A program made the translations under genes and the position numbers. Below the pieces are notes generated by a model that was not told the DNA's origin, did not search any database, and was given only the letters and a program-made list of their open reading frames with translations. Shown in pieces: positions 1 through 10,000 of a stretch of 10,000 nucleotides of DNA. Within the stretch, counting starts at the first letter, position 1, and each line of letters starts with the position of its first letter. The stretch covers positions 1 through 10,000 of the forward strand of contig NZ_JAIWOI010000174.1 of the NCBI RefSeq assembly GCF_020217005.1. Reading direction: 5' to 3'. Source of the DNA: Rheinheimera sp. (GTDB taxonomy: Bacteria; Pseudomonadota; Gammaproteobacteria; Enterobacterales; Alteromonadaceae).

Positions 1-152
1 TGCATCGTTCTACCATAGTCAACTTACATCATGTGCATAAAGTGCAACCACATAACAATGACTATCAATTGTTACTGTCTAATGGCCAGAGCGTAGCGGC
101 TTCCAGGCGGTTTAAAGCCGATTGGTCAGAACAGTTACTCCCCGCCAGATAA
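1..152 (+). CDS. LytTR-domain response regulator, C-terminal end only (partial)
   Basis: Only the last 49 residues and the TAA stop (150-152) are in the window; the gene starts to the left. The frame beginning at base 3 reads HRSTIVNLHHVHKV, then a DYQLLLSNGQ segment, then ASRRF. This is the usual end of a LytTR DNA-binding domain: an 'H(R)S.IVNL..V' strand, a 'G.Y.L.L.NG' strand and an 'SRR(Y/F)' turn. LytTR domains normally sit behind a CheY-like receiver domain and are phosphorylated by a LytS-type histidine kinase, but neither part is visible here. Proteins of this class bind pairs of direct repeats about 21 bp apart, and such a pair lies roughly 100 bp downstream, ahead of the next gene. 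The frame is open from base 3 to the stop, and a terminator follows. The family call is from motif recognition. The exact regulator cannot be named. Confidence 0.8.
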   Translation, partial: HRSTIVNLHHVHKVQPHNNDYQLLLSNGQSVAASRRFKADWSEQLLPAR

Positions 153-153
153 T

Positions 154-171
154 TAAGTTTGCACAAACTTA
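154..171. repeat. 18-bp inverted repeat right after the LytTR stop
   Basis: TAAGTTTG (154-161) and its exact complement CAAACTTA (164-171) are separated by only CA. The loop is too small for a good RNA hairpin, so a protein-binding palindrome or part of the 3' end structure is more likely. It begins two bases after the stop codon and is directly followed by the terminator stem. Confidence 0.45.
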
Positions 172-172
172 T

Positions 173-206
173 AGCCCGGCAGATAGCTATATTTGCCTGG
201 CTTTTT
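173..206 (+). terminator. Rho-independent terminator of the LytTR gene
   Basis: AGCCCGGCA (173-181) pairs with TGCCTGGCT (194-202) with a single internal C/T mismatch, around a 12-nt loop, and is followed by a short T-run (TTTT, 203-206). It lies 20 nt after the LytTR stop codon and separates that gene from the DUF3718 gene. Confidence 0.7.
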
Positions 207-247
207 AGTTTCAACCTGAAGCAAAAAAACGACAAAAAGCGCGGTTC

Positions 248-279
248 CCTCTGGTCACTTCTGCAATTCCTCTGGTCAC
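248..279 (+). promoter_or_regulatory. Tandem 11-bp direct repeat, candidate LytTR response-regulator binding site
   Basis: CCTCTGGTCAC occurs exactly at 248-258 and again at 269-279, a 10-bp gap and a 21-bp start-to-start distance, which is two helical turns. Known LytTR regulators such as E. coli YpdB and BtsR bind two direct half-sites of about this length and spacing. The gene to the left encodes a LytTR regulator and the gene to the right (359) would be the target. The regulatory role is inferred. The second copy can also pair with CAGAGG at 284-289, so an RNA-level role is possible. Confidence 0.5.
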
Positions 280-297
280 AGAGCAGAGGAAAACCTT

Positions 298-339
298 GAG
301 GTCTGGTAGCAGACTTCAGCTATGGCACTTGCCATAGTT
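298..339 (+). promoter_or_regulatory. Two adjacent hairpins in the leader of the DUF3718 gene
   Basis: GAGGTCT (298-304) pairs with AGACTTC (311-317) with one G-U pair. Immediately next, CTATGGC (320-326) pairs perfectly with GCCATAG (331-337) around the loop ACTT. The second hairpin ends eight bases before the GAGG ribosome-binding site (346-349). There is no T-run, so these are not ordinary terminators; they could stabilise the message or bind a regulator. If transcription starts inside this block, they would instead be DNA-level palindromes. Confidence 0.4.
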
Positions 340-358
340 CAACTCAGAGGACAACACC

Positions 359-676
359 ATGAAAACTGCCTTTCTTTTCGCTGCAGCAGTACTGTCAGTA
401 TCAGCCACAGCCATGGCTGATACTTATATCCCACCTCAGGTCCAAGATGTTCTGGTAGAAGTCTGCAGTAATACTCAGACTGACGACAGACTGTCATTGC
501 GTAAGACCTTGCATCAGAACCGCTTATCAAAAAAAGCGGCTGTGACCAAAGTAGTCTGCAATGGTCAGGCCTTAATGGATTTCGCCCGCAGTTCGAACGC
601 GAACAAAGTAGTAGCTATGCTAAGTCCTTATGAACAGCGCGCCAAAGTCTCAATTTCCGATCTAGTGGCGCCTTAA
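359..676 (+). CDS. DUF3718 family small exported protein
   Basis: A 105-residue protein of unknown function. Residues 1-20 form a typical Sec signal peptide: Lys2, a hydrophobic core of FLFAAAVLSVSA, and AMA before a predicted cut at Asp21. The mature protein of about 85 residues should be periplasmic or secreted. It matches the DUF3718 pattern as I remember it: LVEVC at 32-36, DDRL.LRK.L..NR at 42-55, VCNGQ at 66-70, then FARSSNANK. Cys36 and Cys67 are the only cysteines and could form a disulfide. The ATG at 359 is preceded by GAGG at 346-349, nine bases upstream, and the signal peptide starts there. The gene is alone on its strand, follows a LytTR regulator gene after a terminator, and has its own upstream region with tandem repeats and hairpins. 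It converges with the chemotaxis gene, the stops being 10 bp apart. The gene call is secure, the family likely, the function unknown. Confidence 0.85.
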   Translation: MKTAFLFAAAVLSVSATAMADTYIPPQVQDVLVEVCSNTQTDDRLSLRKTLHQNRLSKKAAVTKVVCNGQALMDFARSSNANKVVAMLSPYEQRAKVSISDLVAP

Positions 677-686
677 TCTGTTGACG

Positions 687-2300
687 TTAGCCCTGACTTT
701 TGATTTTAAACAATGACACTGTTGTACTTAAATGGCCGGCCAGTTCAGTCATAGACTGAGCGGCCTGCCCAATCTGTTGATTGCCCGCTAAAACCTGTTC
801 GCCTAACAGTCTGAAATTCTGCACTTGCTGCCTTAATTCCGCCACATCCTGCTGAGCATCACTGGCAATACTGGCTGACTGCTGGCTGACATCTGCCAGT
901 TGTAATATCACAGCACGGCTTTTCTGCAAGGTGTCGACCAAAGCGGAAGACAACTGAACAGACTGAGCAGCCTGCTGCTGATTGGATCCCATAGTGGTGA
1001 CAGCGGATTGGATCGATTGCACTATGGTCTCCAGCATACGGTTAATTTCAACTGTCGACTGGTGGGTGCGGATCGCCAGAGTCCGCACCTCGTCAGCCAC
1101 TACTGCAAAACCCCGCCCAGAATCTCCGGCCCTGGCTGCTTCTATCGCCGCATTTAATGCCAGTAAATTGGTTTGAGCAGCAATATCGGCAATAGTTTTA
1201 ACTACGGTTGAGACCTGATCACCAGCGACCCGCAATGTCAGTAACATAGATGCCGTAGTTTCAATATCAGTGGCCAGCCGGAGTATGCTGTCGCTACTTT
1301 GTTTTACCTCTTGCTGAGCCACAACCAATTGCTGTGCCCCTTGCTGAGCGTGCTCTGCAGCAGAAGCTGAGCAGGCTACGCTTTGTTGCATTTGCAACTC
1401 AAGTTGCTGCATCAGATCAACTAAACGTCCTATATCATTCTGCAGGTGCTGCACTGTATCAGCGGACACTTCTGTGCTGCTGCTCAGGTTTGCAACTGCT
1501 TTGCCGATTTGACCTATAGCGCCCTGAACTTCCCTCATGCCGGCGCTGAATACCTGCAACAAGCCTGTTAAGCTGACAGACATCATGCCGAGCTCACCTT
1601 GTTGCTGTTGGTCAAACTGCACCGTCAGATCCCTTTGTTGTGCCAGATAGGTGATTTGGCTGGACAGGCGTTGAATTGGTGTCGCAATTTGCCGCTGCGC
1701 TAATACAAAAGCACCAACAGCAACCAGAACCAATACTGAAATTAAACTGATAATAACGACAAAACTCAGGGACAACTGCTGCGCTATCGCCATAGAACCG
1801 GTATTCGCATCGGCAGCAACAGCAGCACGCAATTCCCCCAATCGTTTAGCCAAAACGGCGGAACTCTGAGTTAAAACAGCTAATCGCTCTCTGGCCAGAT
1901 CCCAATCCACAGAAGATGCTGCCATCACAGTGCTTAACTCATCCAGTGCAGCATGGAATAGCTGCAGCTCAGTCTTCACAGATAACTTGAGCTGCCGCTG
2001 TAACTCCTGGTCTGCTTGCTGCAGTTTCTGCTCCAGTTGCTGTTGCTTAGTCTTAAAGTTGTCACTGTCTAAGGTAGTACCATACAAAGAGTAACCAGCC
2101 AGTTCCAGCTCTTTACTGTTGGATAACAACAGGTCCAACTGAGCCAGAGCTGGTAACGTAATGCCGGTAAAACTGTCGACCCGCAAACGGATTTGCTGGT
2201 TATTATTTAAAAGCACAATGGCAGAAATTATCGCCACTATTAGCACTGCAGCGTAACCTGCAATGATTTTACTGCGGATTGAGTGAAACATTTGGGCCAT
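687..2300 (-). CDS. Methyl-accepting chemotaxis protein
   Basis: A 537-residue membrane chemoreceptor that would signal through CheW and CheA to the flagellar motor. In order: membrane helix 1 at about 12-31; a periplasmic helical region at about 32-177, of four-helix-bundle size and rich in Gln and Leu; membrane helix 2 at about 178-201; a HAMP linker at about 202-254, beginning [11 protein letters not shown]; then a long cytoplasmic coiled coil. The hairpin tip is intact, with [19 protein letters not shown] at 374-392 followed by [15 protein letters not shown]. No C-terminal CheR-binding pentapeptide of the NWETF kind is present; the protein ends FKIKSQG. The ligand cannot be told from the sequence. 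The start at 2300 has a GGAG motif six bases upstream (CTCC on the + strand, 2307-2310), which supports it over the Met at residue 4. A FliA-like promoter lies about 85 bases upstream. The gene is monocistronic and converges with the DUF3718 gene. Confidence 0.95.
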
Positions 2301-2383
2301 AGGCTACTCCGGTGGGCATCTACAAAGACATAAGTGCAGTTTAAGCTGCTCAATTCAACCAAGACCGACCCAGAGCCAATAAA

Positions 2384-2410
2384 CTTTCGGCTTAGTGACT
2401 AAGTTTTTCA
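2384..2410 (-). promoter_or_regulatory. Candidate FliA (sigma-28) promoter for the chemoreceptor gene
   Basis: Read on the - strand: TGAA (2410-2407), 15 bases, then GCCGAAAG (2391-2384). The sigma-28 consensus is TAAA-N15-GCCGATAA, so this matches 3 of 4 and 6 of 8 positions with exact spacing. Chemoreceptor genes are commonly in the FliA regulon. Transcription would start near 2377, giving a leader of about 77 nt. The palindrome CTTAGTGACTAAG (2391-2403) lies between the two elements and touches the -10. Confidence 0.45.
2391..2403. repeat. 13-bp palindrome inside the chemoreceptor promoter
   Basis: CTTAGT-G-ACTAAG is a perfect 6-1-6 inverted repeat. The right arm starts the first of two direct copies of CTAAGTTT (2399-2406 and 2414-2421), 15 bp apart. 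TAAGTTTG, part of the second copy (2415-2422), is also the arm of the palindrome at 154-171. This could be an operator overlapping the promoter, but the arms are short and chance is not excluded. Confidence 0.3.
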
Positions 2411-2720
2411 AACCTAAGTTTGTGGCCAATAGGTCACCTCCTTGTCATAGCTGATCCTTTATACTTTAGCCTATAAAAGAACAAAGATTGGACAAAAAAA
2501 CAGCCTTACTCTCCGCCAAGCCCTTGTATCTAAAAAAGATAAATTAAATCCAATTATTTATTCAGTTTTGTTTAAATCTGGTCGCTTTATTATTGAGTTG
2601 TAACGGGTTTACTAAATCTCATCGTTTGAAAATGAGACTGCAGCGAGTACACATCTTTACAACGTAGTCAGGGTCACAACAGTACATTAGCGTTTTCAAC
2701 CACCTATGCGATCAATCTCA
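2411..2720. other. AT-rich intergenic region between divergent genes, no gene seen
   Basis: Together with 2301-2410 this is about 430 bases without a convincing gene. It separates the chemoreceptor (-) from the discoidin/di-haem gene (+). Bases 2460-2620 are clearly AT-rich, with A-tracts at 2494-2500 and 2532-2537, as is common upstream of promoters. TATTAT at 2588-2593 resembles a -10 element, but I see no good -35 at the right distance. TCTCAT (2617-2622) and ATGAGA (2632-2637) form a weak inverted repeat. No clear + strand promoter can be called. Confidence 0.5.
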
Positions 2721-2726
2721 AAGGAG
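2721..2726 (+). promoter_or_regulatory. Ribosome-binding site that sets the start at 2733
   Basis: AAGGAG is a near-perfect Shine-Dalgarno sequence, six bases before the ATG at 2733. It lies inside the longer reading frame that could begin at the ATG at 2706, so that upstream start is unlikely. The ATG at 2727 directly abuts the motif and is too close. Confidence 0.75.
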
Positions 2727-2732
2727 ATGATA

Positions 2733-3863
2733 ATGAATCCGGTTTCCTCCCACAGAACACGATCTGGTTTTGGCGCCAGATTGGCGGGCATCAGTAAACT
2801 ACTGAGCCCGGTCTTGTTGTTAGTACTGGGTAACACTGCGAGTGCAGACCCGGTGAATTTAGCTTTAAATAAAAAAGTGACGGCAAGCACTGAACTACGT
2901 CGGGCCAAAATGGCTGTAGATGGTGATCCGGGCAGTCGCTGGGAATCAGCCCACAAAGTAGCTCCGAGTTGGCTGGCAGTAGACTTAGGTAGTGTCAGTC
3001 AAATCAGTCAGGTCAAGATTGACTGGGAAGACGCCAACGCAGAAATATATGAAATTCAGGGCTCAGACGACAACAGTAACTGGACCACTTTGTCAGTCCA
3101 GACTGGCGGTAAAAAAGGCAACAGAACTGATACTGTGGATCTGAACGCCCAGTACCGTTATTTGCGTGTCTTCGCCACTAAACACAGTGAGCATAATGGT
3201 TATGGTTTTTCCATTTGGGAATTAAAGGTTTTAGGCACAGCAGGTGACGGCGCACCAGTCTCTCCTGATGCTCCGCCAGCTGGCAGCAGCAATATAGCCA
3301 AAGGCAAAACCACCTACGCCAGTAGTCATTTACAATCCTCAGCAAAAGCAGTAGATGGCAATACCGATAGCCGCTGGGAGTCCAACCACCGCGAATCCCC
3401 TTCATGGATGTCAGTAGATTTAGGCTCGGTCAGTGCCGTGCAACAAGTCGCTATTCATTGGGAAGCGGCCAATGCAGCCAGCTATGAAGTACAGGGCTCA
3501 TTGGATAACAGTAACTGGACCACCTTAGTAACGCCTTATATAGATGAGTTTGGTAACAGAATAGACAGATGGGATCTGTCTGGTGACTACCGTTATATCC
3601 GCATCAACGCTTTAACACCAAGCTCAGGAAACGCCTGGGGTTATTCAATTCGCGAGCTTGAAGTTTTTGGTCAAACCGGTGAAGCGCCTCCGACAAATCC
3701 TACGGAACCAACAGAGCCAACTGACCCTACAGATCCTACAGACCCAACGGATCCGACTGAGCCTACGGATCCAACAGAACCTTCAGAGCCAGCTCCGGAA
3801 CCTGTACCACTGCCTGAAGGTGCCTTACCTCTGTTCCCTGAAAACACTAAAGTAGTTGAGTAA
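2733..3863 (+). CDS. N-terminal fragment: exported protein with two discoidin (F5/8 type C) domains
   Basis: As it stands this frame encodes 376 residues. Residues 1-38 form a signal peptide with a long n-region (HRTR, ARL), a hydrophobic core SPVLLLVLG and an ASA cleavage site before Asp39. Two discoidin-like beta-sandwich domains follow at about 41-168 and 186-313. They repeat the same landmarks: NLALNKKVTAS versus NIAKGKTTYAS, AVDG....SRWES in both, SWLAVDLGSVS versus SWMSVDLGSVS, DNSNWTTL in both, and a YRY(L/I)R strand. They therefore arose by internal duplication. Such domains usually bind sugars or cell-surface polymers (compare CBM32). A proline/threonine/acid linker (320-352) and a short PEPVPLPEG tail end the fragment at the TAA. 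On its own it could be secreted as a binding protein with no catalytic part. The start is fixed by AAGGAG at 2721-2726. Confidence 0.8.
   Translation: MNPVSSHRTRSGFGARLAGISKLLSPVLLLVLGNTASADPVNLALNKKVTASTELRRAKMAVDGDPGSRWESAHKVAPSWLAVDLGSVSQISQVKIDWEDANAEIYEIQGSDDNSNWTTLSVQTGGKKGNRTDTVDLNAQYRYLRVFATKHSEHNGYGFSIWELKVLGTAGDGAPVSPDAPPAGSSNIAKGKTTYASSHLQSSAKAVDGNTDSRWESNHRESPSWMSVDLGSVSAVQQVAIHWEAANAASYEVQGSLDNSNWTTLVTPYIDEFGNRIDRWDLSGDYRYIRINALTPSSGNAWGYSIRELEVFGQTGEAPPTNPTEPTEPTDPTDPTDPTDPTEPTDPTEPSEPAPEPVPLPEGALPLFPENTKVVE
3690..3788 (+). repeat. Eleven 9-bp units coding a Pro-Thr-Asp/Glu linker
   Basis: Eleven consecutive three-residue units: PTN, PTE, PTE, PTD four times, PTE, PTD, PTE, PSE. 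Codons differ freely between units (CCT/CCA/CCG, ACA/ACG/ACT, GAT/GAC), so the repeat is kept at the protein level and is not a fresh slippage product. It is a flexible, acidic, protease-resistant kind of linker between binding and catalytic domains, as seen in many secreted enzymes. Confidence 0.85.
3861..3863 (+). other. In-frame TAA that splits the discoidin/di-haem gene
   Basis: The codon follows GTT GAG and precedes ATT CAG TAC AAA. One base change from CAA, AAA or GAA would create it. No stem-loop or other recoding signal is obvious next to it, and TAA is normally a strong stop. Confidence 0.8.
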
Positions 3864-3893
3864 ATTCAGTACAAAGAAGCAGATGGTACTTTA

Positions 3894-5816
3894 GTGACCT
3901 TGATGGGAGCACGCCCAACAGAACGTCATGCCCGCGAACGGGGTGAAGCCTGGGATGCGCCGGATCAGGGACCTGGTCGTTACCTGACCTTCCCACCTTT
4001 CTATTTCCAGAACCGTACTTTTGGTCTGGAAATACGCGACACTATCCCGGCTGGTGGCAATACCATCGAAGTCTGGTTGCATGTCAATGAAGGCAGCTTC
4101 CGTGGAACTACCTTTAGCTTGTTCCGTAACATCGAAAACCCAAATGTAAGGGATTTTGGCTGGTCGTTGAACTATGGCTTTAATAACCCGAATGAAGGGG
4201 GCCAGCCTTTATGCCATTCCGGTAAACGTGAATGCATGATGAGCTTTAACTCTAACTGGCGCACAAGCCCTCATAGTCCGCTGAAAATTGGTGACAAAAT
4301 TGAACTGGCACCGGCTCCACGTTTATTAACACCAGTGATAGATGGTGGTGGTGAGCGTTATTACTCCTTTGAACAGCTGTATATTGTTGGTGTAGGCATG
4401 CGTCCCTGGTACGGTGTAGCACCGAACCTTGACTCTGAACCTCTGCCAAATCATACCCTGCTTGGTGGTGAAACCAGTGTATCGTACAACTACTCGGAAG
4501 AACCTTTCCGTATGTTCCAGCAGATGGCGAATAACATAGGGATAGGCAATACCTTAAGATTCTCTAAAGGCCGTCGTTTATTCCATACTTCTTTTGCCTC
4601 AGGTATTCACTCAGAGTCCCCAACGCAAAATCCGGTCTTTGCTGAACACCAAAATCAGTTAGGCCCTCGTTATAACAATGAGCGTTGTATAGGTTGTCAC
4701 CAGAACAATGGTCGCAGTCTGGCGTTAAAATCCGGTGATAAGCTGGACACTTACTCTGTATTTACCGGCATGATGGCGGATGACAAAGTGGTGGCCGATC
4801 CACTGTATGGTTTAACTATTCAGGCCAAAGCCAGGGCAGCCAATGCCGATGACTATTCAGTGACTGTCACTGGTTATCAGACTGAAATTAAAACTCTGGC
4901 CGATGGCACAACAGTCGAACTGCAAAAACCTCTTTACGAGTTCAAAGGCCCGGTACCAGAGTTGTATTCAGTGCGCCAGGCCCCCCAAGTTATAGGTATG
5001 GGGTTACTGGAAGCTATTCCGGAGCAAGCCATTCTGGCGAATGTCGACATCAATGATGTCAATGGCGATGGTGCTAAAGGTGTAGCACATTGGGTAAAAA
5101 ATCCGGAAACCGGGGCTACTCAGTTAGGCCGTTTTGGTTGGAAAGCCACTAAGGTCAGCGCCCGTCATCAGGCGGCTGAAGCTTTAGTTCAGGACTTGGG
5201 CGTGACTTCCCCTGTCTATCCACAACGTTCTTGCCAAAAAGGAGCGGCAGATTGTCAGCAACATTCGGGCACTACTCATATTTCAGAAGGTGAGCTGGAG
5301 CATTTAACCCAGTATCTGGGTTTATTGGGTGTACCGGCTCAACGCAGTTTACGCAGCGGTTATCCTGATGGCATTCGGGTATCACCTGAGCACGACGTCA
5401 ATCCACAACTGATAGCCCAGGGTAAACAGCTGTTTGTGCAAAGCCAGTGTGTAGCTTGTCATACCGCCAGCTTTACCACAGGCAAAACTCACCCTCTGGC
5501 CGAGCTGCGCAATCAGAAAATCCAGCCATACAGCGACTTATTGCTGCACGATATGGGCGCTGGTTTAGCCGACAATCTACCACAGGGCAAAGCCTCAGGT
5601 TCTATGTGGCGTACCGCGCCGTTATGGGGTTTAGGTAGTCTGAAGTATGTGCAGGGTGGCGAAGATAAAGTACGTTATCTGCACGATGGCCGCGCCCGTA
5701 CTTTGGACGAAGTTATTTTATGGCACGGCGGCGAAGCCACTCAAAGCCGCAGCCTGTATGAAAACCTGACCGCAGAGCAACGTACAGCAGTAAAAGCTTT
5801 CTTACAGTCCTTGTAA
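3894..5816 (+). CDS. C-terminal fragment: di-haem c-type cytochrome oxidoreductase (DHOR/COG3488-like)
   Basis: A 640-residue frame if begun at GTG 3894; an ATG is at 3903. Residues 30-180 form a region I do not recognise, with FYFQNRTFGLEIRDTIP, a possible disulfide pair Cys107/Cys114 and many aromatics. From about 188 on, the DHOR signatures appear: a LLGGETSV segment, haem motif CIGCH at 265-269 after the LGPRYNNER stretch, RQAPQVIGMGLLEAIPE at 361-377, GRFGWKA at 412-418, a second haem motif CVACH at 519-523, LLHDMGAGLAD at 550-560, WRTAPLWGLG at 572-581 and YLHDGRARTLDEVILWHGGE at 595-614. The family contains two covalent haems and is described as putative peroxidases or thiol oxidoreductases; RoxA-type rubber oxygenases are distant relatives. 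The substrate is unknown. There is no signal peptide and only a weak AGAAG before the GTG, so independent translation and haem loading look unlikely. It reads as the catalytic half of the interrupted gene. Confidence 0.8.
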   Translation: MTLMGARPTERHARERGEAWDAPDQGPGRYLTFPPFYFQNRTFGLEIRDTIPAGGNTIEVWLHVNEGSFRGTTFSLFRNIENPNVRDFGWSLNYGFNNPNEGGQPLCHSGKRECMMSFNSNWRTSPHSPLKIGDKIELAPAPRLLTPVIDGGGERYYSFEQLYIVGVGMRPWYGVAPNLDSEPLPNHTLLGGETSVSYNYSEEPFRMFQQMANNIGIGNTLRFSKGRRLFHTSFASGIHSESPTQNPVFAEHQNQLGPRYNNERCIGCHQNNGRSLALKSGDKLDTYSVFTGMMADDKVVADPLYGLTIQAKARAANADDYSVTVTGYQTEIKTLADGTTVELQKPLYEFKGPVPELYSVRQAPQVIGMGLLEAIPEQAILANVDINDVNGDGAKGVAHWVKNPETGATQLGRFGWKATKVSARHQAAEALVQDLGVTSPVYPQRSCQKGAADCQQHSGTTHISEGELEHLTQYLGLLGVPAQRSLRSGYPDGIRVSPEHDVNPQLIAQGKQLFVQSQCVACHTASFTTGKTHPLAELRNQKIQPYSDLLLHDMGAGLADNLPQGKASGSMWRTAPLWGLGSLKYVQGGEDKVRYLHDGRARTLDEVILWHGGEATQSRSLYENLTAEQRTAVKAFLQSL

Positions 5817-5832
5817 TAGGTTGAAATCAATG

Positions 5833-5873
5833 AAAAAAGCCGCAGTTCTTTATTAAAAGTAAGCGGCTTTTTT
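5833..5873. terminator. Bidirectional rho-independent terminator
   Basis: AAAAAAGCCGC (5833-5843) pairs exactly with GCGGCTTTTTT (5863-5873), an 11-bp stem with A-tract and T-tract on opposite sides, so it can end transcription both ways. It serves the di-haem gene (stop at 5816) on + and the small membrane protein gene (stop at 5902) on -. Confidence 0.85.
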
Positions 5874-5901
5874 ATTGGCTGGACAAGCGATAAAAAGTGG
5901 T

Positions 5902-6141
5902 TCAGAGCCGGTCGATTTTTTTAGCGTAATGCCAGGCAATGGCAATCAGAAACAGGCCCCCCAAGATCAGCGAGAAAAAAGCCGGAGACTGCAACAGGCC
6001 AAGTTCAGTCTTCAAGCTTGCGGCTAAAGCGACACCCAAAGCGGTTCCAAACAAAATCCCTATCAGAGTCAAAGCAACAACAACAAACTTTAATGTGCTT
6101 TTTAAGTCGTTACGTTTGGCGTTTTGTACTGAACTCATCAT
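5902..6141 (-). CDS. Small two-helix inner-membrane protein, function unknown
   Basis: A 79-residue protein I do not recognise. A polar N-terminus of about 17 residues with several basic residues is followed by membrane helix 1 (about 18-41, FVVVALTLIGILFGTALGVA), a short loop, helix 2 (about 54-71, AFFSLILGGLFLIAIAW) and a basic end, KKIDRL. The charges suggest both ends are cytoplasmic. A ribosome-binding site GGGAG lies seven bases before the first of two adjacent ATGs (6141 and 6138); either could be used. It is a single gene between the bidirectional terminator and the aceA terminator, so it has its own promoter, which I cannot place with confidence (a TATATA lies on the - strand about 90 bases upstream). 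No enzymatic motif is visible. The opposite-strand frame over the same bases has no ribosome-binding site and is not a gene. Confidence 0.7.
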   Translation of the reverse strand: MMSSVQNAKRNDLKSTLKFVVVALTLIGILFGTALGVALAASLKTELGLLQSPAFFSLILGGLFLIAIAWHYAKKIDRL

Positions 6142-6260
6142 TAGAAATCTCCCTTAATCTTTAAAAATGCTGACAGCCTCTCCGGCTTCTGTATATAAAA
6201 CTGCCAGAATAAAAAAATGAGATCAAGGCGTTGCGATAAAACTCCCAGCTGACACTCTGT

Positions 6261-6285
6261 AAAAAAAGGCAGCCTTACGGCTGCC
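6261..6285 (-). terminator. Rho-independent terminator of aceA
   Basis: On the - strand GGCAGCC-GTAA-GGCTGCC is a perfect 7-bp stem with a 4-nt loop, followed by seven T (A-tract 6261-6267 on +). It lies about 100 bases beyond the aceA stop and prevents readthrough into the small membrane protein gene. No gene is seen between it and aceA. Confidence 0.85.
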
Positions 6286-6382
6286 AATGTCAGTCTAAAC
6301 CGACCACGTAAATCAACAATTACGAAGGGAATATACCCAAAGCCCTGTCAATACTTCAGGTATAGTCGGCCATGCGCCAGGG

Positions 6383-7981
6383 TTAAGAAAACTGGTTCAT
6401 GGTATTGTCTTTCCCTGAAGCCTTCAGCGCAGCTTCTCCAGAGAAGTACTCTTTGTGATCATCACCAATGTCCGAACCCGACATATTCTGGTGTTTCACA
6501 CAGGCGATGCCCTGACGAATTTCCTTGCGTTGTACACCAGCCACATACCCCAACATACCAGCAGCACCAAAATACTCTTTGGCCAGATTGTCGGTCGACA
6601 AGGCCGCTGTATGGTAAGTCGGCAAAGTGATCAGGTGATGGAAAATGCCTGCTTCACGGGCAGCATCAGCCTGGAAAGTCCGAATACGGTTGTCGGCTTC
6701 CAAGGCTAATTCAGTGCTGTCGTAGTCAGCACTCATCAGTTGGGCTCTATCGTACGCAGACAGATCTTTACCTGCTGTTTTCCAGGCATCAAATACCTGC
6801 TGACGGAAATTCAGCGTCCAGTTGAAAGACGGGCTGTTGTTGTACACCAGCTTGGCATTAGGCACCACTTCACGAATACGGTTGACCATTTCAGCAATCT
6901 GACCGACATGAGGTTTTTCTGTTTCAATCCATAACAAATCGGCACCGTGCTGCAATGAAGTAATGCAATCCAGCACCACACGATCAACACCACTGCCTGG
7001 CTTGAACTGGAACAAACCACTTTGCAGGCGTTTTGGTTTTAACAGCTTGCCATTGGCTTTGACCACCACATCGCCATTTTGGATATCGGAGGCGCTTTGA
7101 ATGTAATCACCATCTAAAAAGCTGTTGTATAAATCACCTAAATCCCCCGCTTCGTTGGTGACAGCGATTTGTTTAGTTAAACCAGCACCCAACGAATCAG
7201 TACGAGCCACAATAATGCCGTTTTCGATGCCTAATTCCAAAAAGGCATAACGCACCGCATTAATTTTTGCCAGGAAATCTGCGTGAGGCACTGTGACTTT
7301 ACCGTCCTGATGACCACATTGTTTTTCGTCCGACACCTGGTTTTCAATCTGAATGGCGCAGGCACCGGCTTCAATCATCTTCTTCGCCAGCAGATAAGTG
7401 GCTTCGGCATTACCAAAACCAGCATCTATGTCAGCAATAATAGGCACTACGTGGGTTTCGAAGTTGTCGATTTTATTCAGCACTTCGGCGGCTTTGGCTT
7501 GATCGTCTTTGGCACGCGCATCATCCAGCTCACGGAATAAACCACCTAATTCACGGGCATCGGCCTGCTTTAAGAAGGTATATAACTCTTCGATTAACGC
7601 AGGCACTGCAGTTTTTTCATGCATCGACTGATCAGGCTGAGGGCCAAATTCAGAACGCAATGCAGCTATCATCCAACCCGATAAATACAGGTATTTACGC
7701 TTAGTGGTACCGAAATGTTTCTTGATGGCGATCAGTTTTTGCTGACCGATAAAACCATGCCAGCAACCTAAAGACTGAGTGTACTGACTGCTGTCAGCAT
7801 CATAAGCTGCCATATCTGCACGCATAATATCTGCAGTGTACTGCGCTATATCTAACCCTGTTTTAAAGCGATTTTGCAGCTGCATACGGGCGGCAGATTC
7901 AGCATTAATAGCGGCCCAGCCTTTTCCTTGTGCTTTGCAGCTTTGTTCCAGTTGTTTAATGGTCTGTTGATACGCTGACAT
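6383..7981 (-). CDS. aceA: Isocitrate lyase, long form
   Basis: Splits isocitrate into glyoxylate and succinate, the first step of the glyoxylate shunt, letting the cell grow on acetate, fatty acids and other two-carbon sources; cytoplasmic tetramer. The protein has 532 residues, the length of the longer isocitrate lyases of Pseudomonas and Shewanella rather than the 434 of E. coli. Key motifs are complete: metal-binding DIDAGFGNAEAT at 184-195; the active-site loop KQCGH at 220-224 with catalytic Cys222; HQDGKVTVPH next to it; ARTDS at 259-263; WIETEKP at 351-357; NNSPSFNW at 381-388; and LPTYHT at 453-458. Gln in KQCGH instead of Lys is, from memory, usual in this long form. The start at 7981 has AGAGGA six bases upstream. 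It is transcribed alone from the gap shared with the LysR gene and ends at a strong terminator. It is separated from aceB, with which it often forms an operon in other bacteria. Confidence 0.97.
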   Translation of the reverse strand: MSAYQQTIKQLEQSCKAQGKGWAAINAESAARMQLQNRFKTGLDIAQYTADIMRADMAAYDADSSQYTQSLGCWHGFIGQQKLIAIKKHFGTTKRKYLYLSGWMIAALRSEFGPQPDQSMHEKTAVPALIEELYTFLKQADARELGGLFRELDDARAKDDQAKAAEVLNKIDNFETHVVPIIADIDAGFGNAEATYLLAKKMIEAGACAIQIENQVSDEKQCGHQDGKVTVPHADFLAKINAVRYAFLELGIENGIIVARTDSLGAGLTKQIAVTNEAGDLGDLYNSFLDGDYIQSASDIQNGDVVVKANGKLLKPKRLQSGLFQFKPGSGVDRVVLDCITSLQHGADLLWIETEKPHVGQIAEMVNRIREVVPNAKLVYNNSPSFNWTLNFRQQVFDAWKTAGKDLSAYDRAQLMSADYDSTELALEADNRIRTFQADAAREAGIFHHLITLPTYHTAALSTDNLAKEYFGAAGMLGYVAGVQRKEIRQGIACVKHQNMSGSDIGDDHKEYFSGEAALKASGKDNTMNQFS

Positions 7982-8046
7982 GATGCATCCTCTGTGGTGT
8001 TGTCTTTAGTTTGTCCGGCTTTTAGTAAGTGCCGCTGTTGACATTC

Positions 8047-8113
8047 ACTATAGGTTTCAAAATATAGATTCATGTAGCTGATTTTTTTGATTCTCGTCAT
8101 TCATTGTGTGAAT
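8047..8113. promoter_or_regulatory. aceA/lysR divergent control region with a LysR-type box
   Basis: ATTCA-TTGTG-TGAAT (8099-8113) is an inverted repeat containing a T-N11-A core, the pattern bound by LysR-type regulators. On the - strand TATAGT (8052-8047) could be the aceA -10; transcription would start near 8040, placing the box at about -66, the usual position of a LysR recognition site. A second ATTCAT at 8068-8073 would sit near -30, where activation sites lie. No good -35 is seen, as expected for an activated promoter. The site and promoter are predictions. Confidence 0.45.
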
Positions 8114-8173
8114 ATGTAAAGCACTAAATCAGCCTTTAACTGGCGGCGTAATAGCCCTAAGAAGCGGAAGCAG

Positions 8174-9115
8174 ATGAATATCAGCAAAATTGACCTGAAT
8201 TTATTGGTGTATCTGGATGTATTACTGCGGGAAAAAAACGTCACCCGCGCAGCCAACCAGCTGAATATCACTCAGCCTGCCATGAGCAATGGCTTAAAAC
8301 GACTGCGGGATTTATTAAACGACCCTATTCTGGTGCGTACTTCAGACGGTATGGTGCCAACAGAGCGGGCAAAAGATCTGGCACCAGTAGTACGGGGTAT
8401 TTTGCTGACACTGGAAGAAACCTTACAACCAAATAAAGACTTTGAACCAGAACACAGCCATCGCGTTTTTCGCATTATGGCCAGCGATTATGCAGCATCT
8501 ACCCTAATCCCGGCTTTGCTTAAGAAGCTACGGGCTCAGGCACCTTGTACTTCGCTGGACATTATGACTCCGTCAGATGTGACCTTTCATGATGTAGAAA
8601 ATGGCAAAGTGGATATGGCAATTAACCGTTTTGATCAACTGCCGCAATCTTTTCACCAGAAAACCATTTGGCGTGATAGTTTTGCCTGCCTGGTCAATAG
8701 CTTAAACCCTATTCTTGGTAACTTTAATTTAGACACTTACCTAAAAGCCCAGCATATCTGGGTCAGTAAAACTGGCTTTGGTGTAGGTGTGGGTATGGAT
8801 CCGGCTGACGTGCAAAAACTGGGTTGGGTGGATGAAGCCTTAGCCAAGTTTGGCAAGCAGCGCAGCATCAGCGTTTTTACCCGTAACTATCATGTGGCTA
8901 TGCATTTGGCAGTAGAGACAGATTTGATTGCAACTTTGCCTTTACGCGCTGCGCTCCTGTACCAGAATGACGCGACGATGAAAGTGCTGGATCCGCCTTT
9001 TCCAATCCCTTCGATAGAGCTGAAAATGATCTGGAGTCCGTTATTACATCAGGATGCCAGTCATATCTGGCTAAGGCGATTAATTACCGAAGTGGCAGAC
9101 GAGCTGCATTTGTAA
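8174..9115 (+). CDS. LysR-type transcriptional regulator, probable glyoxylate-shunt regulator
   Basis: A 313-residue protein of normal LysR-family length. The N-terminal winged helix-turn-helix covers about 6-65: LNLLVYLDVLLREKNVTRAA, then NQLNITQPAMSNGLKRLR as recognition helix region, then DPILVRTSDGMVPTERA. A linker helix (68-85) leads to a periplasmic-binding-protein-like effector domain from about 95 (HRVFRIMASDYAAS) to the end. The HTH wording resembles the NodD/NahR/LeuO-like branch. The inducer cannot be told. ATG at 8174 follows a modest GGAAG, and the HTH begins at once, supporting this start. It is divergent from aceA, the classic arrangement for a LysR regulator and its target, and convergent with aceB. 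Control of aceA and perhaps aceB is therefore inferred from position; no named family member is recognised. The gene ends five bases before the 56-bp palindrome. Confidence 0.92.
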   Translation: MNISKIDLNLLVYLDVLLREKNVTRAANQLNITQPAMSNGLKRLRDLLNDPILVRTSDGMVPTERAKDLAPVVRGILLTLEETLQPNKDFEPEHSHRVFRIMASDYAASTLIPALLKKLRAQAPCTSLDIMTPSDVTFHDVENGKVDMAINRFDQLPQSFHQKTIWRDSFACLVNSLNPILGNFNLDTYLKAQHIWVSKTGFGVGVGMDPADVQKLGWVDEALAKFGKQRSISVFTRNYHVAMHLAVETDLIATLPLRAALLYQNDATMKVLDPPFPIPSIELKMIWSPLLHQDASHIWLRRLITEVADELHL

Positions 9116-9120
9116 GCATT

Positions 9121-9176
9121 AAATTGGGGTCAGATCACATTAGTTATGCATAACTAATGTGATCTGACCCCAATTT
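9121..9176. repeat. Perfect 56-bp palindrome, GGGGTCAGA type, between lysR and aceB
   Basis: The left arm (9121-9148) begins AAATTGGGGTCAGATCAC and ends at GTTATG; the right arm (9149-9176) is its exact complement, with no unpaired base at the centre (ATGCAT). All 28 positions match. It fills all but seven bases of the gap between the stop codons of lysR (9115) and aceB (9179). The RNA would form a very stable hairpin on either strand. On + it is followed by TTTTATT, so it very probably terminates lysR, and it may terminate aceB as well. From memory, GGGGTCAGA-cored repeats are scattered in many gammaproteobacterial genomes, often beside Y1/REP-associated transposases; that would make this a mobile repeat recruited as a terminator. 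No transposase is in the window. Confidence 0.9.
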
Positions 9177-9178
9177 TA

Positions 9179-10000
9179 TTAAGCAGTTAACAGCTCATAA
9201 GCCGGCAGGGTCAGGAAATCAACCAATTGATCTGCTGTGGTAATTTGTAGCAGTAATGCCTGAGCACGCTCAAACTGTTGTTGCTGCCACAATTCCTCAC
9301 CCACCTCTGCGCGCACTACTGTCGCTTCTTGCAGCAACATCTGTGCGAACAACTCCTTCGTCACTAACTGGCCATTATTTAAACTTTTGCCGTGTTTAAT
9401 CCATTGCCAAATAGAGGTACGGCAAATTTCAGCCGTTGCAGCGTCTTCCATCAGGCCATAAATTGGCACACAGCCTTTACCACTGATCCAGGCGGCGATG
9501 TACTGCAAAGCCACGCGAATATTAGTTCGCATACCGGCCTCTGTGCGCTCACCAGAACTTGGCGCTAATAAATCTGCTGCTGTGACAGGCGCATCCTCAG
9601 CGCGACTGACATGCAACTGATTGGTTTTGCCATTGGTCAGGTATTGGTTAAACACGTCATTCGCTGTTGCTGCTAAACCAGGATGCGCTACCCAGGTGCC
9701 GTCATGACCGTTGCTGGCTTCGCGTTCTTTATCCGCTGTCACTTTGGTTAAAATTGCCTGATTTGCAACAGGGTCTTTTGCCGGAATAAATGCCGCCATC
9801 CCTCCCATCGCCAAAGCTCCGCGCTTGTGGCAGGTTTTGATCAGAAGTTTTGAATAGGCCGATAAAAACGGCTGATCCATAGTCACTACCTGACGGTCCG
9901 GTAACACGCGGTCAGCATGATTTTTTAAAGTTTTGATATAACTAAAAATATAGTCCCAACGACCGCAGTTCAGCGCCACTATGTGCTCACGCAGTGCATG
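9179..10000 (-). CDS. aceB: Malate synthase A, C-terminal half (5' part outside the window)
   Basis: Condenses glyoxylate with acetyl-CoA to give malate, the second step of the glyoxylate shunt. Only the last 273 residues are present; the family is usually about 530-545 long, so roughly half is missing beyond base 10000. The frame stays open to the window edge, reading HALREHI before VALNCGRWDYIFS, so the GTG at 9979 is not the start. Seen motifs: LNCGRWDYIFSYIKT, LPDRQVVTMDQPF, the acetyl-CoA/active-site region TCHKRGALAMGGMAAFIP, KEREA.NGHDGTWVAHPGL, and GLMEDAATAEICR..IWQW containing the catalytic-base Asp of the family. These fit AceB (isoform A) and not the larger GlcB. The gene is on the same strand as aceA and upstream of it, but the + strand lysR lies between them. 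Its promoter is outside the window. Confidence 0.95.
   Translation of the reverse strand, partial: HALREHIVALNCGRWDYIFSYIKTLKNHADRVLPDRQVVTMDQPFLSAYSKLLIKTCHKRGALAMGGMAAFIPAKDPVANQAILTKVTADKEREASNGHDGTWVAHPGLAATANDVFNQYLTNGKTNQLHVSRAEDAPVTAADLLAPSSGERTEAGMRTNIRVALQYIAAWISGKGCVPIYGLMEDAATAEICRTSIWQWIKHGKSLNNGQLVTKELFAQMLLQEATVVRAEVGEELWQQQQFERAQALLLQITTADQLVDFLTLPAYELLTA

Follow-up and report, generated by a model that had tools for sequence, protein, structure and literature searches.

A loop-free palindrome between lysR and aceB of Rheinheimera sp. belongs to a mobile hairpin family and appears to stand in for ordinary terminators

The palindrome and its neighbourhood

The window analysed here, a stretch of 10,000 nt of Rheinheimera sp. 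(contig NZ_JAIWOI010000174.1, positions 1 to 10,000), comprises convergent genes for a LysR-type regulator and for malate synthase (aceB), with stop codons at 9113-9115 and 9179-9181, respectively. The gap between them (9116-9178) measures 63 bp, of which 56 bp are filled by a palindrome. The features are:

8174-9115, plus strand: gene for the lysR-type regulator (Pfam), 3' end 5 nt ahead of the palindrome
9121-9176, no strand: mobile element copy, perfect 28+28 palindrome (pairing and genome pattern search)
9121-9123, minus strand: three T only, tail ATTTAATG, a weak U-tract for aceB transcripts
9125-9134, plus strand: left arm end motif TGGGGTCAGA, which fits GGGGWSAS (consensus from PMC3733652)
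9135-9162, no strand: inner arms and centre TCACATTAGTTATG/CATAACTAATGTGA, one base off the commonest centre of the family
9163-9172, minus strand: right arm end motif TGGGGTCAGA, inverted
9174-9177, plus strand: T4 tail after the stem, for lysR transcripts; terminator-like scan matches on the plus strand only
9179-10000, minus strand: aceB (malate synthase; Pfam, NCBIfam), 3' end 2 nt past the palindrome, continuing beyond the window

Direct base pairing confirmed what the sequence-only reading had described as a loop-free perfect 56-bp palindrome between convergent genes: the two arms of 28 nt pair base for base without a spacer. When one mismatch was allowed, the arms extended to 31 nt each (9118-9148 and 9149-9179, 97%). 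By arithmetic the probability of a given perfect 28-bp arm is 4^-28, which is far beyond chance. RNA folding of the palindrome resulted in z values of -10.3 and -10.9 for the two strands, and none of 200 shuffled sequences was equally stable. An Rfam search of window positions 8800-9500 returned six microRNA-precursor matches, every one far below the gathering score, as expected for a long hairpin. At the gathering threshold Rfam gave nothing in the window or in three control contigs, and a sequence search for solved structures gave no match at E ≤ 0.001.

Two further observations concern the window. An isocitrate lyase gene (6383-7981, minus strand; NCBIfam NF005074, 1046 bits over the cut-off) lies beside lysR and aceB, forming a glyoxylate-shunt cluster with them. 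On the plus strand, the frames 2706-3863 and 3894-5816 are in the same reading frame with a stop between them, and the latter contains two CxxCH haem motifs (by eye); 2706-5816 is possibly one interrupted gene.

The repeat family and its Y1 transposase

The palindrome is a copy of a small mobile hairpin family of about 50 copies, which is linked to a REP-type transposase. The genome (G000, Rheinheimera group; 3.92 Mb in 379 contigs) contains 112 exact matches to TGGGGTCAGA, compared to 3 for the reversed string. Paired copies of the form TGGGGTCAGA-N(4-34)-TCTGACCCCA numbered 46 under the strict pattern, with 0 in the reversed control, and 51 under a looser pattern; on re-listing, 111 of the 112 arm matches were recovered as 46 pairs and 19 unpaired arms. 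These numbers bore out the multicopy repeat proposed in the sequence-only reading: the genome-wide search found dozens of copies, not a single one without relatives.

One of the 46 copies belongs to a second family with GTAAAATT arms. The remaining copies have arms equal or near to TGGGGTCAGATCACATT and several centres, most commonly AGTTACGCATAACT (19/46). The window copy is one base apart from the commonest core, and this change makes the lone mismatched pair a Watson-Crick pair. The core is free of mismatches in 9 of the 46 copies; eight of these have a single central base, and the window copy is the sole even-length, truly loop-free member. At the feet, all 92 arms have A at -4 to -2 and 73 have T at -6, so the foot often reads TAAAA. 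The core was preceded by at least three A and followed by at least three T in 36 of the 46 copies, a set that does not include the window copy. Across 22 genomes of the genus, the looser pattern yielded 130 copies in G004, 51 in G000, 50 in G013, 47 in G006, 32 in G014, 31 in G016, 14 in G021 and 0 to 8 in the other 15. In G013 a sister family (GGGGTCAGAGTCAATTGTTAACAG) was seen, in which GTTAAC-like flanks replace the A/T feet at most of the 15 loci shown (L376-L390).

Recent origin, which had been suggested from the exact symmetry, was not supported. G006 has the identical perfect core in its orthologous copy, at 87% local identity, so the symmetry either predates the split or arose again and is no mark of recent insertion; the commonest core, moreover, is a single base away. 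Another perfect copy is located elsewhere in the genome of G016. Four symmetric and four asymmetric deviations at arm positions 11-17 were too few for an argument on arm-to-arm homogenisation.

Two other repeats were observed. An IS-like end (GTGGGGAT[A/C]CCTCAG) adjoins the repeat at GGTCAGATC or GATCTGACC at all six sites with at most one mismatch, which in G000 are the contig ends C62, C65, C254 (both), C292 and C338 (L393-L398). It looks like an element whose insertion into the palindromes duplicates 9 bp. At two mismatches there were five weaker matches, and the three of them that were viewed lie outside palindromes; the reversed control had 7 hits. Also dispersed between genes is a second repeat, which starts with AATTGGAGTTGCAG. 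It has 30 exact matches in G000 (reversed control 0), is represented at L193, L200 and L208 and relatives, and on C271 and C274 forms pairs spaced by 127 bp; in the three contigs examined with Rfam no family reached the gathering threshold.

A Y1_Tnp search of the genome identified two genes. The gene in L043 (1177-1917, minus strand) is flanked by one degenerate and one full copy of the repeat; the gene in L044, around which 7 kb of its contig are free of paired copies, was set aside. The outer flanks of L043 and of its relatives in L111, L112 and L113, which come from G004, G006 and G016, are similar, and this suggests a gene inherited vertically at a single location. Across 80 related loci, GGGGTCAGA was present within 250 bp upstream of the gene in 51, inverted downstream in 45 and on both sides in 37, with 1 and 4 in the wrong-orientation controls. 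Some other Rheinheimera and Shewanella loci have plain inverted repeats and no palindrome at the ends of the transposase gene, which suggests that the palindrome consists of two such ends joined.

The catalytic tyrosine motif (Y---NP) reads YIELNP in the resident protein and is present in 79 of the 80 relatives, the exception (L173) being frameshifted. All 80 related loci encode HUH at the position where the resident protein reads HVY. This could mean an inactive enzyme or an error of the assembly at that base, and it counts against the explanation that we favour below. With regard to the C-terminal helix-turn-helix of subclass 2.1, Pfam at E ≤ 0.001 gave Y1_Tnp alone on this protein, and the NCBIfam model REP_Tyr_transpos (RAYT) scored 65.6 bits, below its cut-off of 80. 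Transposases with at least 89% identity were restricted to G000, G004, G006 and G016. G013 and G014, although rich in copies, lack a close transposase, which also counts against the favoured explanation.

A Y1 gene flanked by inverted GGGGWSAS repeats, the TIRs of TIRYTs (PMC3733652, PMC6006769), is found here and in related loci. The resident gene is a member of the TIRYT class by descent, with HUH present in the relatives and not in L043. The suggested link to REP-associated Y1 transposases thus held for the Y1 gene with its flanking copies. It did not hold for the repeat unit: the GTAG/CGTC foot of REPs is absent, AAA plus A, T or G precedes TGGGG in the 92 arms, and the motif fits the TIRs of TIRYTs. 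TIRs and TIRtrons with their TIRYTs (Di Nocera et al. 2013, PMC3733652; TnpA-REP subclass 2.1, PMC6006769) share the tyrosine motif and the flanking repeats with the present system; they likewise form dispersed families, some of them self-complementary. Unlike in TIRs, the dispersed unit here is a near-perfect palindrome of 44-52 bp with A/T feet that is packed against stop codons and occupies the terminator sites of relatives, and the resident transposase lacks the second His of HUH. As described in the available parts of PMC3116915 and PMC8049555, REPINs and RAYTs have in common with it two inverted repeats as a hairpin, a single-copy, vertically inherited Y1 gene and tens of copies, whereas here the units are not GTAG-tagged REPs and the halves are joined with almost no spacer.

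Gene 3' ends and orthologous gaps

The sequence-only reading had proposed a check of whether copies lie at the 3' ends of convergent genes. This check placed a gene 3' end within 20 nt of the core in 40 of the 46 copies and 26 of the 46 between convergent genes; gene calls were made with our own ORF scorer, and in two copies a called neighbour was missing on one side. As a control we used 20 contigs (200 kb), taken in roughly even steps and shifted off contigs with known copies. Here 8.9% of the intergenic bases were near a 3' end, counted within 15 nt to allow for a 5-nt foot and not within 20 nt of the core as for the copies, and 14.7% were in convergent gaps. The gap left outside the element at the 26 convergent copies had a median of 6.5 nt, with three outliers above 350, compared to 54 nt for the 19 convergent gaps of positive length in the control (p about 4e-5). 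Of the 119 copies in G004 and the 50 in G013, 15 each were inspected, and a 3' end lay within 20 nt in all 15 and in 12, respectively. The G013 copies shown have this placement without A/T feet, which counts against the favoured explanation, since placement may then stem from targeting or purifying selection and not from termination.

We compared orthologous gaps in ten relatives at lysR-aceB and at 12 further sites, chosen among the 26 convergent copies for flanks of at most 19 nt on both sides in this genome; the gaps are short here because the sites were selected so, and those of the relatives are unselected. Among the 130 site-genome combinations, 99 were resolved (none at C344, four each at C258 and C133, five at C335). 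G004 and ten more distant genomes are outside this count. Under the strict family pattern, by which some diverged family-like palindromes, such as those of G014 at C312 and G002 at lysR-aceB, fall among the non-family alleles, 14 of the 99 alleles carry the family. Their gaps measure 62-84 nt, and a second hairpin is present in none of them. A gap of 30 nt or more is found in 81 of the 85 non-family alleles, and 80 of the 81 contain a hairpin.

At several sites the relatives have ordinary hairpins where this genome has the palindrome alone. This was the case for 9 of 9 resolved alleles at C120, 7 of 10 at C260:6753, 5 of 8 at C312 (four with an identical hairpin) and 4 of 4 at C258 (three identical). 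In G006 a short piece of G010-type sequence is kept beside the palindrome at C152, and this allele looks like a partial replacement. At C133:6514 four relatives have gaps of 9-22 nt without a hairpin. This counts against the favoured explanation: replacement is not seen at every site, and these gaps fit plain insertion.

The lysR-aceB gap was followed in 21 relatives. The family is present in G006 and G014, and G002 has a variant in which the changes of one arm are matched in the other. Hairpins of the GGTCAGAGCC type are found in G016, G008 and G001 (two in G001), of the GGGTCAGAGTAAAATT type in G021 and G004, and of the GGAGCCAGAGC type in G010 and G012; G015 has an ordinary terminator, and the ten more distant genomes have GC-rich stems. 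A separate observation was made at C223:1889 and its orthologues. A short hairpin TAAAAAATGGGG..CCCCATTTTTA occupies this site in five relatives, and full palindromes that differ in their centres occupy it in this genome, G006 and G016, which gives the impression of a lengthened stem or of an exchange of its inner part.

These comparisons lend support to the terminator role that had been proposed for the palindrome, and in this genome it appears to replace ordinary terminators at several gene ends. A stable stem followed by a U-rich tract, as in intrinsic terminators, is present in the sequence, with the stem on both strands and a weak tract on the minus strand. The palindrome would thus be a stronger terminator for lysR than for aceB, because a U4 tract follows the stem on the lysR side and U3 on the aceB side, and the scan matched the plus strand only. 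The U3 tract and the position of the window copy outside the A/T-footed set count against the favoured explanation, as does the stem, which is much longer than in usual intrinsic terminators. Bidirectional intrinsic terminators of convergent genes share the A-tract, the GC-rich stem foot, the T-tract and the place of the relatives' terminators with the palindrome. They differ in that the palindrome belongs to a dispersed multicopy family with a core of 44-52 nt, and its terminator function is putative.

Origin and possible function of the palindrome

We consider it likely that a miniature element mobilised by a TIRYT was recruited as an exchangeable terminator. The element would be non-autonomous, built from two inverted transposase-end repeats joined head to head, and spread by the Y1 chemistry of the TIRYT/REP-type transposase whose gene lies between two repeat copies in this genome. 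Copies would be retained next to the 3' ends of genes. There the hairpin, together with its A/T feet, would act in the RNA as a 3'-end hairpin, terminating transcription of one or both convergent genes and probably also stabilising the 3' end. The palindrome would take the place of the ancestral terminator and not a position beside it.

An independent, locus-specific terminator that became perfect by chance or by arm-to-arm repair would agree with the presence of some hairpin between lysR and aceB in most relatives. It is ruled out by copy number, with near-identical copies at dozens of unrelated loci, and different palindrome families occur within the same orthologous gap. That the family is a MITE belonging to a DDE-type IS or to a different transposase, the Y1 gene being a bystander, is very unlikely. 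The many copies in G013 and G014 without a close Y1 relative would fit it; the repeat on both sides of the Y1 gene, here and in relatives, and the expected orientation of GGGGTCAGA around this gene in 51 of 80 loci argue against it.

Neutral placement has more in its favour, and we still regard it as unlikely. Here A-rich targeting that includes TAA stops, or purging elsewhere, would bring copies to gene ends without any particular termination, and the old terminators would have been deleted separately. The constant A and frequent T of the feet agree with such targeting, as do the many copies that begin 3 nt past a stop codon, the same placement of the G013 family without A/T feet and the general location of REPs, which according to the available part of PMC3733652 mostly lie 3' of genes, in gaps whose flanking genes converge or run in the same direction. 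The orthologous gaps speak against neutral placement: nearly all non-family gaps of at least 30 nt retain a hairpin and no family allele has a second one, which suggests that a hairpin is needed and that the palindrome serves. As to how the old terminator was lost under the favoured recruitment of the element, a hairpin-for-hairpin exchange, in which Y1 acts on single-stranded hairpins at gene ends and swaps the terminator in one event, seems improbable to us. If it did occur, terminators would form a set of mobile cassettes, exchangeable for one another, and the host would come to depend on them.

A literature search with the arm string gave no paper on bacterial repeats among the matches listed, judged by title. 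Titles and abstract openings on replaced or mobile terminators and on Rheinheimera repeats did not mention replacement of a terminator by a palindrome at orthologous sites. The available part of PMC8049555 describes a host benefit of REPINs as little evidenced and cites termination by REPs. A family palindrome in the place of the relatives' terminators is a concrete, testable candidate for such a benefit. If the repeat does necessary work at 3' ends, this could help to explain why such families persist when their only transposase is slow or apparently dead. From species to species, moreover, a terminator would then change in identity and keep its place and its job.
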